Positions 9,848-43,700 of a DNA stretch of 43,700 bases are shown piece after piece; the first letter of the stretch is position 1; each line of letters begins with the position of its first letter. This DNA is from Lachnospiraceae oral taxon 107 str. F0167. Its GTDB lineage: Bacteria > Bacillota > Clostridia > Lachnospirales > Lachnospiraceae. A model generated the notes under the pieces. That model worked only from the letters and a program-made list of their open reading frames with translations. It did not search any database and was not told the DNA's origin. Position numbers and translations under genes: made by a program. The stretch spans positions 45,160 through 88,859 of the forward strand of contig GL890589.1 in the NCBI GenBank assembly GCA_000209465.1, in the 5' to 3' direction.

Positions 9848-10291
9848 ATGAAACAGGAATTACTTGCAAAAATGAATGCTTATTTGGCAAATCAGGAGAT
9901 TATGTACATCAAACTACATAATATGCACTGGAATCTGAAGGGACATGGATTTTTCACTCTTCATTCCAAATTAGAGGAATATTATGATCAGACAGCCGAG
10001 ATTATTGATGAGGTAGCTGAGAGAATACTTGCTATGGACGCTCTGCCAATAGCTAACTTAAGGGAAGCATTGGAAATCAGCAAGGTAAAGGAACTTCCGG
10101 ATAAAGCCATTAACATTGATGAGGCTATTCGTATACTTACAATTGATGTTGAGTATTGGGTAAAGGATTCAAAGGAAATTGTGGAATTGGCTGACAAGGA
10201 AGGTGATGTGGTAACTGCCGATATCTTTACAGGCTATGTAAAAGAATATGAAAAGACTCTGTGGATGCTTAAGGCATTTGCACAAAACTAA
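9848..10291 (+). CDS. dps: Dps-family ferritin-like DNA-protection protein
   Basis: A 147-residue mini-ferritin that oxidises and stores iron, removing hydrogen peroxide and in many species shielding DNA. The family pattern is intact: HNMHWNLKGHGFFTLHSKLEE followed by YDQTAEIIDEVAERI, supplying the His, Asp and Glu residues of the inter-subunit ferroxidase site. I start at ATG 9848, which follows AAAGGAAT. An upstream in-frame TTG at 9824 would add MFCGKEYF, which is not family-like. It stands alone, between a Fur/PerR-like operator and a strong terminator, which suggests its own peroxide- or iron-responsive unit. Confidence 0.93.
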   Translation: MKQELLAKMNAYLANQEIMYIKLHNMHWNLKGHGFFTLHSKLEEYYDQTAEIIDEVAERILAMDALPIANLREALEISKVKELPDKAINIDEAIRILTIDVEYWVKDSKEIVELADKEGDVVTADIFTGYVKEYEKTLWMLKAFAQN

Positions 10292-15419: not shown

Positions 15420-16714
15420 TGTTTAATTTTTTTAAGAAAAAGCAAAATGAGGTGGAAATACCACAGGTGCAGCCTATGGCTACATGGGAGGAAAACTCCT
15501 ATATGCATGTTTTATCGGATAATGTGGAAGCTGAGAATATTGAAGGTGCAAAGGAAAGAATAGAAAGTATCGAAGGCTTAAAGCTGATAGAATTCAATAT
15601 AAGAGATAATAATTCCGGGAATCTCACATTGGAATATCATGGAGATGAATATGGTGTAGGCTTTTATTTTGATGATTTCGTATTGGACAGTTTATATTCC
15701 TTGCAAAATCAGAAGATGCATGATGAAGATTTTGAAAAAATACAGCAAAAAACAAAGTCATTTGTTATTTATATGAAGTTTAATAAAAATTATATGGACT
15801 CATATCATTTGCAGGTAAAACTTATAATGGCATTTTTTCCGGATACATTGGCTGTAGTAGATGAGAGTGCGGAGCGACTGCTAAGCGGAAGATGGGTGGA
15901 ATTGGCTGCCAAATCCAAGGTTACACCTAATGCTGAAAGCTTGTTTACAGTACAGGCTGTTTTTGATGAAAAGACAAAAAAAGTATGGCTGCATACACAT
16001 GGAATATGCAGAACCGGATTTTCCGAGTTTGAGCTTTTAGATGTAAGTCAGGAGAATGTAAATGATGTGTATTATTTGATAAATACTATGGCAAACAGAG
16101 TATTATATCAAAATGAGGCTGTGGAAGATTATATATTCCTTGGTGAGTTTGTAGACGGAAATATGATAGTGGCGGCAACCCTGCCATGGAATGAGGGTGT
16201 AGCAAAGTATCCGGCAAATATTCCGGGTGGAGCAAATGACAGAGAGGGAAGTCATAATACAAACAGTAAAATAATCTTTTTATTCCTTACAGAGGATGAT
16301 GCAAATAATGGAAAGTATACAAAGCCGTCCGAAATAGAGGATAAGCTTATTGAGAATCCGCTGTACTATTATTCAAATGAGCAGACAGATCATATGAAAT
16401 TTATGGCAAGAGACAGATTTGATTTGTTAAAAAAATCAATAGAGGAGCATCCAAGCTATAAGGCACTTATTAAGGTCGGACTTCCAACAGATAATGAGGA
16501 TGGAAGTATTGATTATGAAAATCTGGAACATATATGGTTTGAACTTAAGGAATTTACAGATGCAGGATTCAAGGCGGTACTTACCCAGGAACCATACAGA
16601 GTTTCATCTATAAAAGAAGGTGATGAGGGTGAATATACCATAAATGATGTAACAGACTGGATAATTTATACCGATGAAATGAGTATAGATCCAAATATCG
16701 CATATTTATTATAA
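15419..16714 (+). CDS. DUF4026-like protein with C-terminal DUF2314-like domain
   Basis: A 431-residue cytoplasmic protein. The long first part (MFNFFKKKQNEVEIPQVQPM and onward, including VKLIMAFFPDTLAVVDESAERLLSG and LPWNEGVAKYPAN) resembles DUF4026. The last 75 or so residues (EHIWFELKEF, then ALTQEPYRVSSIKEGDEGEYT and the DVTDWIIYTD segment) have the DUF2314 pattern of a small beta domain with a terminal Asp-Trp. Neither domain has an established activity that I know. It starts inside the stop of the TPR gene and is followed after 12 bases by yhcH. Domain names are from memory of family patterns and carry moderate certainty. Confidence 0.65.
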   Translation: MFNFFKKKQNEVEIPQVQPMATWEENSYMHVLSDNVEAENIEGAKERIESIEGLKLIEFNIRDNNSGNLTLEYHGDEYGVGFYFDDFVLDSLYSLQNQKMHDEDFEKIQQKTKSFVIYMKFNKNYMDSYHLQVKLIMAFFPDTLAVVDESAERLLSGRWVELAAKSKVTPNAESLFTVQAVFDEKTKKVWLHTHGICRTGFSEFELLDVSQENVNDVYYLINTMANRVLYQNEAVEDYIFLGEFVDGNMIVAATLPWNEGVAKYPANIPGGANDREGSHNTNSKIIFLFLTEDDANNGKYTKPSEIEDKLIENPLYYYSNEQTDHMKFMARDRFDLLKKSIEEHPSYKALIKVGLPTDNEDGSIDYENLEHIWFELKEFTDAGFKAVLTQEPYRVSSIKEGDEGEYTINDVTDWIIYTDEMSIDPNIAYLL

Positions 16715-39084: not shown

Positions 39085-40638
39085 ATGGAATTAAAGCAGG
39101 AACTTATAATAGTCTTGGACTTTGGAGGTCAGTATAATCAATTAGTTGCAAGACGAGTAAGAGAGAATAATGTATATTGTGAAATCTATTCATATAAAAC
39201 ACCTTTGGAAGAAATAAAGAAGAAAAATCCAAAAGGTATAATACTTACAGGAGGACCGGACAGTTGTTATCTGCCTGATTCAGCCACATATTCAAAAGAA
39301 CTTTTTGCACTCGGAATTCCTGTGCTTGGGCTCTGCTACGGAGCACAGCTTATGCAGCATCTCCTTGGCGGAAAGGTAGAAAGAGCCGATATAAGAGAGT
39401 ATGGCAAAATACAGCTTACAGTGGACAAGTCAGAAAGTGAATTATTTGAAAATGTACCAAAGGAAAGCATAGTATGGATGAGCCATACCGACTATATAAG
39501 TAAGCTGGGTGAAGGTTTCGAAATAACATCACATAGCAAAGACTGTCCTGTGGCAACATATGAAAATACAGAAAAAAAATTATATGGAATTCAATTCCAT
39601 CCTGAGGTACTACATTCAGAGTACGGCTCAGTGATTCTTGGAAATTTTATAAAGAATGTTTGTAAATGCGAATGTAACTGGAAGATGGATGCCTTTGTAG
39701 AGAGCAGCATAAAGGCAATCAAGGAAAAAGTAGGAAATGGCAAGGTTCTATGTGCCCTTTCAGGTGGAGTGGATTCATCAGTTGCGGCAGTAATGCTAAG
39801 TAAGGCAGTAGGAGATAACCTCACCTGCGTATTTGTAGATCACGGACTCCTTAGAAAGAACGAGGGAGATGAGGTAGAGGCGGTATTTGGACCTAACGGC
39901 AACTACAAGTTAAACTTCATCAGAGTAAATGCGGCAGAAAGATTCTATGCAAAGCTTGCAGGTGTAAGCGAGCCTGAAAAGAAGAGAAAGGTAATAGGCG
40001 AGGAGTTTATCAGAGTATTTGAAGAGGAAGCAAAAAAAATCGGTAAAGTAGATTTCCTCGTACAGGGAACCATCTATCCTGATATAGTAGAATCAGGACT
40101 TGGAGGTGAGAGTGTAGTAATAAAATCCCATCACAATGTAGGAGGACTCCCTGACTATGTAGATTTCAAAGAAATCATAGAGCCGCTTAGAGATCTCTTC
40201 AAGGATGAAGTAAGAAAAGCCGGACTTGAACTTGGTATTCCAAAACATCTTGTATTCCGTCAACCATTCCCGGGACCGGGCCTTGGCATAAGAATTATCG
40301 GTGAAGTAACCGCCGAGAAGGTAAAGATAGTGCAGGATGCAGATGCCATATACCGTGAGGAGATAGATAAGGCAGGGCTTTCAATGGAAATCAACCAGTA
40401 CTTTGCAGCCCTTACCAATATGAGAAGTGTAGGAGTAATGGGTGACTACAGAACCTATGACTACGCCATAGCTCTCCGCGCCGTAAAAACAATAGACTTT
40501 ATGACAGCCGAAGCCGCAAGACTCCCTTGGGAAGTACTTGAGAAGGTGACCAACAGGATTATCAATGAGGTAGACCATGTAAACAGGGTACTCTATGATA
40601 TCACAAGCAAGCCACCGGGGACGATTGAGCTTGAATAA
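39085..40638 (+). CDS. guaA: GMP synthase (glutamine-hydrolysing)
   Basis: A 517-residue enzyme converting XMP to GMP using glutamine. The amidotransferase half has [16 protein letters not shown] with the catalytic Cys, and HPEVLHSE with the His/Glu. The ATP-pyrophosphatase half has [13 protein letters not shown] (P-loop) and [12 protein letters not shown], and the dimer domain has [13 protein letters not shown] and ends [14 protein letters not shown] lies before ATG 39085. The 3' terminus of guaA is a known integration site for genomic islands, and here the last codons recur 3 kb downstream. Confidence 0.97.
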
Positions 40639-40639
40639 A
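40627..40639 (+). repeat. Direct repeat, left copy (guaA 3' end)
   Basis: GAGCTTGAATAAA, which includes the guaA stop codon. An exact second copy is at 43672-43684. Likely attachment-site duplication. Confidence 0.65.
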
Positions 40640-40671
40640 GGTTTATATGCAATTTTAAGAGAAAAATATAA

Positions 40672-40830
40672 AGTAACAAGTGTTGGCATAAGAATACAAA
40701 AAGAATTTTCATTAAATCAATTTTGATAAGAACAAATGAAAAAGAAAATATAATTCCGAAAGATGGGATTATATTATTAGATTCAGTAGATGTAATAATC
40801 AAAAGGCATTTATATTGCTTAGACAAATAA
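40672..40830 (+). other. Possible gene fragment without start
   Basis: A 52-codon open frame between stops reads as plausible protein (FIKSILIRTNEKENIIPKDG, then ILLDSVDVIIKRHLYCLDK) but has no ATG and no ribosome site. It may be the tail of a gene lost from the island. The family is unknown. Confidence 0.25.
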
Positions 40831-40872
40831 GAATAAAAGCTTAGTTGGGTGTTACTTTGGAGGTACTTTAAA

Positions 40873-43548
40873 ATGACTGAAATCAATAGAGGTTCGGAAT
40901 GGAGAAAATGGGATTTACACATTCATTCCCCATATACAGTTGTAGATGGTAATGGTTTATATAAAGGTGTAACAGATGATGATTTTATAAAAAAAATATG
41001 TGAAGAAAAGATATCTGTTGTTGGGTTGACTAATTATTTTAAGTTTAGTGAAAGAGATTATGAATTAACAGATAAATTAAGAGCTAAGGGTATAACAACC
41101 TTTATGAATTTGGAGTTTAGGTTGACCAATTTTAATGACGATAAGATGTTATCAGATTATCATGTGATTTTTAGCGATAAACTGTCAAGAATAGAAATAG
41201 ATAATTTTTTATCCAATTTAGATATAAGTGTTGGTAGTTGTAAGAAGAAAATAAATTCATTAAAAGATGAAGAAATAAAGACAAATGCTGCGATTAGTTT
41301 TGAAGAGTTATTTAATACCTTACAAAATGAAAGTTTACACCTTAGAGGTAAGTTCCTAACTGCTTTTTTGAGCCGAGGGCATGGTAATAGTGTTTGTGGA
41401 AAGGGAAGAGGATATACTGTCTATGAGGAAATTGTACGTAAGTCAGATTTAGTGGTGCATTCTACTGACTTTAAGGAAACGCTTGAAAATGATAAATTGT
41501 ATTGGTTAGGGAAAACATCGCATAAAAATAAATATATAAAGCCTTTATTACAATCCAGTGATGCTCATTGCTTAGATGACATTGGATTTAAAATAAGGCA
41601 AGTGGAAGAAAAAAATAAAGATAAATATGGAGTTATTAAAAAAGGGAATAATTATTTTATCAAAATTCCTACATTTACTTGGATAAAATCTGATATAACT
41701 TTTGAAGGATTGAAGCAAATAATTTACGAACCTGAAGAAAGAATAAGATACGGTGCATCTAATCCGGATAATAAATCAAATTATATGGTGATTGATTATA
41801 TTGAATACTATGAAGGTGAACGAACATACTTTAATAGTGGATTAAATGCAATAATAGGAGGTAGGAGTACTGGAAAATCAACTCTATTAAATTCAATTGC
41901 TAAATATCAAAAAAATAAAAATTTCGACTCAGATAAACATTATACATTAGAGAATGGTTATAAGATAGTTTGGGGAGATGGCACTGCAGATGTAGAAAGA
42001 ATGGTCGAATTTATACCACAAGAATTTATGGTTACTATTTCGACAAATCGAAAAATGCTCAATGATCTTTTAGGAGAAATAATATCTAAAAAAAATATGG
42101 ATATTGAAGAAAGAAAATATAAAGAAAAGATAGAAAATATTAACAATGATATAAATTCTGTACTAAACGATTATTTTGCTCAATTATCTTTACAGAAACA
42201 GTTAATAAAGCCTGAAGGCGATAAAGTAGCTGCGAACAGTTCAATAGTAACTATAAGCGAAAATATAGAGAAAATAAGATTAGAAAATCAATTTAGTGAA
42301 GAGGATAATAAAAATTATAAATATGTGTCTGATAAACTAAACTCCCTATTAATAGAAATTCAAACGTTAAAATTAGAACAAGAACGATTGATGGAAATAA
42401 AAGGATTCGATTTTTCAGTAAGCATTGGACTAAATCAGATTAGCTCTAAGAATCAGTGCTTGATTGAAGAAAAATTAAAAAATATAGAAGAATCTTCCAC
42501 AAAACAGTGGATAACATTAATTGAAAAGCTAATTGCTGAAGTTGAAGATCAAATTAAAACTGGAAATGATGAACTTGAAGCATTAAAAGCATCAGATATA
42601 TATTTAAAAGGAAAAAACTTAGAATCAAAAAATGAAGAATTAAAACAATTGGAAGTACAATTGGAAACTCATAAAAAAGTAGTAAAAGAATTTGAAGCAT
42701 ATTATGAAAACTATAATCTGGCTGAAAGAATACTAGAAGAAAAATACAATTCAATTTTAAGCCTTTTCGATCAGTATCACGAAGCGATACAGAAATTTAA
42801 AACTAATTTTACAATTCAAGAAAGTGATCTTAAGATAGAAATAAAAGTGTCAACACTTGATTTTGAAGAAAAAATCGACTATTTGAATGCAAGAAATTCT
42901 ACAAACAACACCTTTATAGAAAATTTTAATAATAATATTAAAGAATTTGATGCAAAAACTTTTAAGGAGTTTTTTAAAGCGTGGTTGAGAGATAGTAAAT
43001 TTTCATTCAATCGAAACAAAAATATTGATGACTTGTTGAAAGATATAGTTACAACGAATTGGTTTAGTTATGATTATATGGTCACATATCAAAATGATGA
43101 ATTTCAAGATATGTCTCAAGGAAAAAAATCATTCGTAATTTTGAAATTATTGCTTGAATTTAGTGATGACAAAAAACCTGTTTTAATTGATCAACCAGAA
43201 GATAGTTTAGATAACCGGGCTATTTATTACGAATTAAGAAATTACTTATTAAGTACTAAAAATAATAGGCAAATAATTGTTGTAACACATAATCCTAATA
43301 TTGTTGTTGGTTCCGATACGGAGAATATTATTGTTGCCCACCAGCAAAGTAATCTGGAAAAAAATATAAATGGTAAAAAATTTCAATATATTAATGGTTC
43401 TTTGGAGAATACTCATGCACGCAATGAATCATGCGAATTTATTTTAGAATCACAGGGAATTCGAGAACATATTTTTGATGTTTTAGAAGGGGGTGAAGAA
43501 GCGTTTACAAAGCGTGAGCAAAAATATAACTATACAAAAATTATATAG
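40873..43548 (+). CDS. PHP-domain/ABC-type ATPase fusion, TrlF-like
   Basis: An 891-residue protein. Residues 10-260 are a PHP phosphoesterase domain beginning WDLHIHSP (metal-binding His16, His18) with a later SSDAH motif. Walker A GGRSTGKST is at 329-337. A long charged coiled-coil region spans about 400-650, like SMC/RloC-type ATPases. The C-terminal ATPase half has the signature-like MSQGKKSFVILKLL (from residue 747), Walker B VLIDQPEDSLDNR and the H-loop VVTHNPNIV. This layout matches proteins called TrlF-family, which are commonly found in defence islands; a nuclease or phosphatase activity controlled by ATP is an inference. I start at ATG 40873 after GGAGGT. The gene is more AT-rich than its neighbours and lies between att-like repeats. 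Confidence 0.85.
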   Translation: MTEINRGSEWRKWDLHIHSPYTVVDGNGLYKGVTDDDFIKKICEEKISVVGLTNYFKFSERDYELTDKLRAKGITTFMNLEFRLTNFNDDKMLSDYHVIFSDKLSRIEIDNFLSNLDISVGSCKKKINSLKDEEIKTNAAISFEELFNTLQNESLHLRGKFLTAFLSRGHGNSVCGKGRGYTVYEEIVRKSDLVVHSTDFKETLENDKLYWLGKTSHKNKYIKPLLQSSDAHCLDDIGFKIRQVEEKNKDKYGVIKKGNNYFIKIPTFTWIKSDITFEGLKQIIYEPEERIRYGASNPDNKSNYMVIDYIEYYEGERTYFNSGLNAIIGGRSTGKSTLLNSIAKYQKNKNFDSDKHYTLENGYKIVWGDGTADVERMVEFIPQEFMVTISTNRKMLNDLLGEIISKKNMDIEERKYKEKIENINNDINSVLNDYFAQLSLQKQLIKPEGDKVAANSSIVTISENIEKIRLENQFSEEDNKNYKYVSDKLNSLLIEIQTLKLEQERLMEIKGFDFSVSIGLNQISSKNQCLIEEKLKNIEESSTKQWITLIEKLIAEVEDQIKTGNDELEALKASDIYLKGKNLESKNEELKQLEVQLETHKKVVKEFEAYYENYNLAERILEEKYNSILSLFDQYHEAIQKFKTNFTIQESDLKIEIKVSTLDFEEKIDYLNARNSTNNTFIENFNNNIKEFDAKTFKEFFKAWLRDSKFSFNRNKNIDDLLKDIVTTNWFSYDYMVTYQNDEFQDMSQGKKSFVILKLLLEFSDDKKPVLIDQPEDSLDNRAIYYELRNYLLSTKNNRQIIVVTHNPNIVVGSDTENIIVAHQQSNLEKNINGKKFQYINGSLENTHARNESCEFILESQGIREHIFDVLEGGEEAFTKREQKYNYTKII

Positions 43549-43620
43549 ATGGGACTGGGACGGGTAAAAAAATCTAAAAACGAGCTTAAATTAAATAAAT
43601 TTCCCAGCACTCAACAAACG

Positions 43621-43646
43621 CAAAGCCTTTATTTTGAACGGCTTTG
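43621..43646. repeat. Short inverted repeat after the PHP-ATPase gene
   Basis: CAAAGCC (43621-43627) and GGCTTTG (43640-43646) are perfectly complementary. No T run follows on the plus strand, so the terminator role is doubtful. It may be a recombinase-arm or remnant site near the island end. Confidence 0.4.
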
Positions 43647-43671
43647 AATGTAGTGAACAGTAGAAAAAGAA

Positions 43672-43684
43672 GAGCTTGAATAAA
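43672..43684 (+). repeat. Direct repeat, right copy (island end)
   Basis: Second exact copy of GAGCTTGAATAAA. The next bases, CAAAAAACGCCAC, may be the original sequence downstream of guaA, perhaps the left arm of its lost terminator. Confidence 0.6.
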
Positions 43685-43700
43685 CAAAAAACGCCACAAA

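Follow-up and report, generated by a model that had tools for sequence, protein, structure and literature searches.

The analysed stretch of DNA, hereafter called the window, comprises 43,700 nucleotides. Near its right end lies guaA, which encodes GMP synthase (517-aa ORF, 39085–40638, + strand) and whose 3′ end is the integration target discussed here; all five other genomes of the genus encode a counterpart with 96% identical amino acids. The end of guaA including its stop codon lies within a 13-bp sequence, GAGCTTGAATAAA (40627–40639, + strand), which recurs exactly at 43672–43684 on the same strand, and no further match with up to one mismatch was detected on either strand of the window. 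The left copy, composed of an 11-bp core (GAGCTTGAATA) plus AA, is designated attL and the second one attR. Between them lies a segment of 3,032 bp (40640–43671) with one intact long gene on the + strand (40873–43548), encoding an 891-aa PHP/SMC-like ATPase of the TrlF family. A start-less open frame of 52 codons upstream of this ORF (40672–40830, + strand) is possibly a gene remnant; it had no match in plasmids, and its DNA gave only short AT-rich matches in 394 genomes of the family. Downstream of the TrlF ORF follow the right-end region adjoining attR (43550–43671, + strand) and, beyond attR, the displaced native 3′ flank of guaA with the left arm of its terminator (43685–43700, + strand).

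An earlier sequence-only reading of the window had described the direct repeat, the TrlF-like ATPase and the start-less fragment between its copies, a foreign-looking, AT-rich composition and the lack of an integrase, and all of these descriptions held. The GC content of the segment is 0.277 compared with 0.353 for the window, and the GC3 of the TrlF ORF (0.20) is the lowest of the 20 ORFs with at least 250 aa, the other 19 ranging from 0.27 to 0.37. No ORF encoding an integrase or relaxase was seen in 40640–43671, where the remaining ORFs are short and overlapping. The segment was also considered as an IS element or transposon, which was rejected because none of the 12 inverted-repeat pairs listed links its two ends and no transposase-size ORF besides TrlF is present. 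The 13-bp repeat alone is weak evidence of an insertion: when the whole window was shuffled 100 times, two of the shuffled sequences contained at least two matches at a tolerance of one mismatch, and among 2000 Markov sequences with the composition and length of the segment, two contained the 13-mer and nine the 11-bp core.

For a comparison within the genus six genomes were used, all of which contain guaA and one of which is that of the window (G000, 95.8% complete). Two of the six, G001 and G002, possess empty sites, in which the guaA core is joined directly to the flank that follows the right copy in the window. Each has only one core (GAGCTGGAATA for G001, GAGCTGGAGTA for G002), and immediately after it comes (T/C)AAAATAACGCCACAAA, which is the right flank of the window with one extra T; the segment 40640–43671 is absent from both. 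As these sites connect the core with the right-hand flank, the comparison demonstrates, at the level of sequence, an insertion of the segment at the 3′ end of guaA. A single core followed by the right flank had been named beforehand as the decisive arrangement to look for, and relatives lacking the ATPase while keeping both repeat copies, named as the arrangement that would refute it, were not seen among these genomes. In G001 and G002 the stop codon of guaA is immediately followed by A(T/C)AAAATAACGCCACAAATCC...GGGTTTGTGGCG, which forms a terminator hairpin. The counterpart of this flank in the window, CAAAAAACGCCACAAA, comes after the right copy, and the terminator-arm-like sequence that had been noticed there, CGCCACAAA (43692–43700), forms the left arm in the guaA terminator of G001 and G002. 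Right after position 43700 of the window, inside the hairpin, the contig of G000 has 330 N (L018:8861–9190) and then continues with TAGTAAATACAAGGGTTTAGTGGCGTTTTTATACG, the right arm of the terminator (GGGTTTAGTGGCG). With the N left out, both arms fold with −15 kcal/mol (z −4.4); judged against G001, few bases need be missing in the gap. The native guaA terminator is now located 3,045 bp further downstream. Between guaA and TrlF the consensus scan found no terminator, and the region 40600–40740 folds no better than its shuffles (z 0.5), which agrees with the earlier statement that guaA has lost its adjacent terminator.

The other three genomes of the genus have different sequences after guaA and are neither empty nor resolved sites. 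A small gene directly follows guaA in G003, the ORF tested in G004 has no Pfam family, and in G005 a tyrosine integrase and a relaxase are encoded. Since the CGCCACAAA terminator was not found in the 15–16 kb stretches of G003, G004 and G005 and the right core could not be placed in G004 or G005, the history of the site within the genus is not simple. Several observations concern its surroundings. G003 carries a copy of the guaA core with one mismatch 1.1 kb after guaA (L021:3701 and L021:4813), and the interval between these cores contains a small gene, a relative of which lies 1.7 kb beyond the right junction in G000. About 20 kb upstream of guaA, G003 moreover encodes an integrase 37% identical to the guaA class (G003:C1:1106377–1107417). 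In the empty-site species G002 a SIR2-domain gene is located just past the guaA terminator (L020:4070–5461), so that the flank of guaA is variable beyond the core too. A gene beyond the right junction of G000 (L018:9807–10349), which we take to be of the ORF6N type, resembles a longer gene of G001 and lacks about 230 bp of the G001 version.

The ATPase between the repeat copies matches the TrlF model NF045780 with 455.3 bits (cut-off 350) over profile positions 1–944 and is accordingly a full-length member of this family. In an alignment the ATPase and PHP motifs GGRSTGKST, PQ, MSQGKK, LIDQPED, VTHN, DLHIHS, NLE and SSDAH are kept. PHP motif II reads GLTNYF in the window and in five aligned sequences from Bacilli plasmids, and ALTDHH in G207, a family member of another genus. 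The PHP domain is weak in Pfam (E 0.48), and sequence matches to solved structures (AriA, E 8e-7) are confined to the C-terminal ATPase portion. Compared with members of the family such as that of the Lactococcus plasmid pNP40, the protein has the full-length match above the cut-off and the motifs in common, but its identity is about 40% and an insertion of about 27 aa follows its SSDAH motif. It was also compared with Ppl, an anti-phage protein with an architecture of PHP plus ATPase. The C-terminal ATPase motifs align with the Ppl model NF042955, but the score of 55.8 bits, with residues 740–834 as the better of two stretches, is far below the cut-off of 1000, and the assignment was rejected for this reason; Ppl is also the best match in PADLOC (55.7 bits, best stretch 740–835).

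The five aligned plasmid proteins are 39–43% identical to the TrlF of the window. A search of plasmids yielded 1104 matching records, 179 of which cover at least 80% of the protein, and the best full-length matches listed, from Staphylococcus, Levilactobacillus and Lactococcus including pNP40, are 37–41% identical; one record outside the 20 listed falls into the 60–80% identity band. Within 397 genomes of the family the best identity is 30%, which is below the best of the plasmids, and in viral contigs one pattern match and no relative by tblastn was found. The cut-off of NF045780 is exceeded in one of the six genomes of the genus and, in a search with the family model, in eight of 394 genomes of the family. 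In two of these eight the gene lies in an interval bounded by guaA cores, namely in the window, which is counted by selection, and in G207. In the other six, all draft assemblies, TrlF and guaA are found on separate contigs and may yet be linked; in one of them, G341, guaA ends 425 bp from the contig end.

The ends of guaA had been described as a recognized landing site of genomic islands. For a survey the best 80 guaA loci of 583 relatives were combined with the six loci of the genus, and 70 of these 86 were usable, i.e., contained the 3′ end of guaA plus at least 300 bp downstream. A tyrosine integrase is encoded within 10 kb downstream of guaA in at least 19 of the 70 loci, each 42–65% identical to one integrase of G207 (that of island C, see below); 19 is a lower bound because an integrase-like ORF at L100, recognized by eye, escaped the motif scan. 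Sixteen of the 19 genes are on the guaA strand and start 0.9–3.0 kb away, and three (L040, L061, L089) are on the opposite strand. With one family of tyrosine integrases recurring at this position, guaA is an integration hotspot in the Lachnospiraceae. Searching each locus for its own exact 11-bp core gave seven repeats on the + strand in 509,506 bases downstream, one of them that of the window, none on the − strand downstream and none in 576,922 bases upstream of the same loci. Eight loci have a second core copy, exact or with one mismatch; an integrase was recognized by eye in six of them and not in L052 and L077. The ORFs tested encode a Mob_Pre relaxase and an AAA_25 protein (L100), an integrase (L074), an AAA_15 ATPase (L039) and a SIR2 domain (L052), so that other guaA loci with the same kind of flanks and different cargo, for which a search had been proposed, do exist. 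The elements at L048 and L050 appear to be identical.

In G207, guaA ends at C22:89644 with the core at 89633. The core recurs at 94171 (one mismatch) and exactly at 98837 and 107702, and the region G207:C22:89633–107702 (L164, L165) is a tandem array of three intervals bounded by guaA cores. Its last interval, island C, encodes a tyrosine integrase, a NikA-like protein, an AIPR protein (AbiU-like in PADLOC), a TrlF (545 bits) and a Fic protein, and the integrase is 65% identical over 344 residues to the one following guaA in G005. In the middle interval no integrase was recognized among ORFs of at least 70 aa, and the two ORFs tested encode a DUF1016/YhcG nuclease and a Fic-type protein. The TrlF gene of G207 lies 14 kb after guaA inside its own core-bounded element. 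Given the identity of about 29% between both proteins, the TrlF genes of the window and of G207 look like separate arrivals, and a conserved chromosomal order of guaA and ATPase across distant species, which according to the sequence-only reading would speak against an island, was not seen.

Both ends of the island were compared with other genomes. The right end (43550–43682) is 78% identical over 134 columns to G248:C26:134602–134733, the sole sizeable match in 396 other genomes of the family, as a match in G360 spans 28 bp only. The sequence in G248 terminates in GAGTTTGAATA, which is also the end, i.e., the core, of this genome's own guaA. Because guaA of G248 lies 77 bp from a contig end, the right end is not linkable to guaA there. 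A degenerate pattern of the right end had no match in viral contigs, the G248 version none in phages or plasmids, and the corresponding peptide hit two plasmid records only (E 3 and 6). The idea that the right end is the tail of an integrase gene was dismissed, as the copies of the window and of G248 differ by frame-shifting single-base indels. For the left end no convincing relative was found in 394 genomes of the family; 77 of them, among which is that of the window itself, gave matches. Apart from the latter the best is one of 59 bp at 78% identity (G168), and the two matches inspected, in G244 (L156) and G327 (L162), have no core on the matched strand. The left end is also devoid of the CTTGCAAAATGCTTGCAGA-type sequence that follows guaA in G005 and L039. 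The genomes of the family yielded no other copy that shares both ends, and within 20 kb around guaA of G000 no third exact core exists; weaker matches are a one-mismatch copy (about L018:12572) and, at 10014, a pattern match, each of them within a reading frame, as well as a further pattern match at 16093.

Taken together, the island is likely a CIME, that is, a decayed guaA integrase element which retains attL, attR and the cargo gene trlF. Its entry into the 3′ end of guaA would have been a site-specific recombination at the 11-bp core, for which a tyrosine integrase specific to guaA, of the type often encountered at this gene in the family, would have been responsible. As the core restores the stop codon, guaA would remain intact and the insertion is expected to be neutral for it, while the terminator would have been pushed 3,045 bp downstream. 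Later the element may have lost its integrase, its mobilization genes and the integrase-side sequence on the left, so that what is left is a single intact cargo gene, trlF, with an attachment site on either side. The nearest relatives of trlF that were found are on Bacilli plasmids. Read-through from guaA might help to express trlF, in front of which no terminator was found, and a later guaA element could carry the island along in cis. The encoded ATPase would act against phages, with its PHP metallo-hydrolase as the effector. This explanation is favoured by the empty sites of G001 and G002, the integrases and core repeats at other guaA loci, the array of G207, the right end shared with G248, which ends in the guaA core of that genome, and G005 of the same genus with its relaxase and its integrase resembling that of G207. 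We infer descent from an integrase-bearing element and its subsequent decay, since the search revealed no ancestor in which these ends enclose an integrase. Any extra content of the terminator loop is hidden by the 330 N at the right junction, which counts against this explanation; moreover, the non-matching sequence starts right at the left core, which requires a deletion endpoint near the core or an unfamiliar type of end. Further points against it are the missing link between right end and guaA in G248, the complicated history of the site in the genus, the weak PHP domain and the selection of the window as one of the two TrlF genes at guaA.

The sequence-only reading had suggested either an island mobilized in trans or a decayed one, and the latter is better supported by the left end without the sequence type of G005 and L039 and by the fact that the best-scoring match of G000 to the guaA-class integrase covers the protein in part only, with 27% identity; no direct result speaks for mobilization in trans. 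Such a minimal element would have complete att ends and borrow the guaA integrase and the conjugation functions of a co-resident element of the G005 or G207 kind. The open cargo gene with its kept motifs, the exact core copies and the right end common to G248 are compatible with this, a helper-type integrase exists in the genus (G005), and in G207 an interval without recognized integrase stands in tandem with integrase-bearing ones. Yet the integrase match of G000, the left end and the failure to find a second copy with the same ends make it improbable. About equally doubtful is the wider proposition that in the Lachnospiraceae guaA serves as a trap dedicated to small mobilizable elements with defence genes, the island being its smallest working form, a one-gene defence cassette which has integrase core sites as its only borders and is moved by the guaA integrase of a resident element.

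The segment might also be what remains at the distal side of an earlier tandem array, comparable to the one in G207, after its inner islands were lost by recombination between cores. This is a sub-route of the CIME reading, with which its likelihood overlaps, and for this particular course we see a modest chance. Tandem core copies do occur in G207 and accretion of IMEs and CIMEs is described in excerpts of PMC5704250, but the 20 kb around guaA of G000 contain no third exact core, only the weaker matches given above. That a chance repeat surrounds an ordinary chromosomal gene is hardly conceivable. A repeat of 13 bp is short and was imitated in the two shuffles mentioned above, but two species with empty sites refute this notion, which also disagrees with the presence of a TrlF above the cut-off in a single genome of the genus as well as with the deviating GC and GC3 of the segment.

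In excerpts of PMC5704250 a CIME is an element which has no integration or transfer genes and retains attL and attR. The island, located at a site of integrative elements, resembles this type: exact 13-bp copies enclose it where empty sites have a single one, and one long ORF and no visible gene for integration or transfer lies in 40640–43671. An IME would contribute its own integrase and mobilization functions, but no integrase or relaxase ORF was seen in the interval. With respect to a parent ICE or IME, the right end is common to the guaA-core end in G248, but no parent with both ends was found. Islands at guaA as such are already known from Tn5801-like elements and IMEs. The guaA-integrating IMEs described comprise the streptococcal Tyr_3 family (PMC5357655) and those of S. 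suis (PMC12479173); they share the 3′ end of guaA as target and resemble the window's sister loci in their tyrosine integrases, whereas ORFs for an integrase or a relaxase are missing from the island of the window. The 3′ end of guaA is likewise the target of Tn5801-like islands, with 11-bp direct repeats as putative core (PMC4844618), but Tn5801 is a 25-kb putative conjugative element with tet(M), compared with 3 kb and one long gene in the window. The titles and opening abstract lines of a partial literature on guaA with genomic islands, Lachnospiraceae and defence hold no report of this island or of a TrlF at guaA, and in a similarly partial selection no paper on the function of TrlF was found.

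Genes next to trlF were inspected at 13 other loci, seven from genomes of the family and six from chosen plasmids, and defence-type genes were present at eight of them. Within the family these are a type I R-M system (G341), PglZ and BrxL (G156), SspB/SspC/BrxP-like proteins (G038) and AIPR (G207). On plasmids, annotation gives cytosine methyltransferases and Abi on pNP40, a type III R-M system on pIBB109 and HsdR on a plasmid of L. brevis, and a Shigella plasmid carries GajA/GajB and Abi. No defence gene was recognized by eye or annotation near TrlF in G233, G061, G288, S. epidermidis and L. lactis FDAARGOS_1064, with G061 and G288 being near contig ends. From the defence genes at eight of the 13 loci we infer a defence role of the TrlF in the window. 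It is probably a stand-alone or R-M-associated defence protein, and its family and neighbours suggest that it probably senses phage infection via the SMC-like ATPase and acts via the PHP metal site. The island represents a clean, bounded example, with empty site, core and cargo, of a single TrlF that settled at a housekeeping gene, and a further TrlF, distinct from the first, is found in another genus (G207) on a guaA element that includes an integrase. Both cases connect the uncharacterized family of these PHP-ATPases with mobile elements and with neighbouring defence genes, and TrlF can now be tested as an anti-phage protein in a straightforward manner. On four of the six plasmid stretches (L142, L143, L145, L146) TrlF has a gene annotated as "recombinase family protein" at a distance of at most about 1.4 kb, and on two lactococcal plasmids (L142, L146) a DUF2130 gene is located directly upstream of it.
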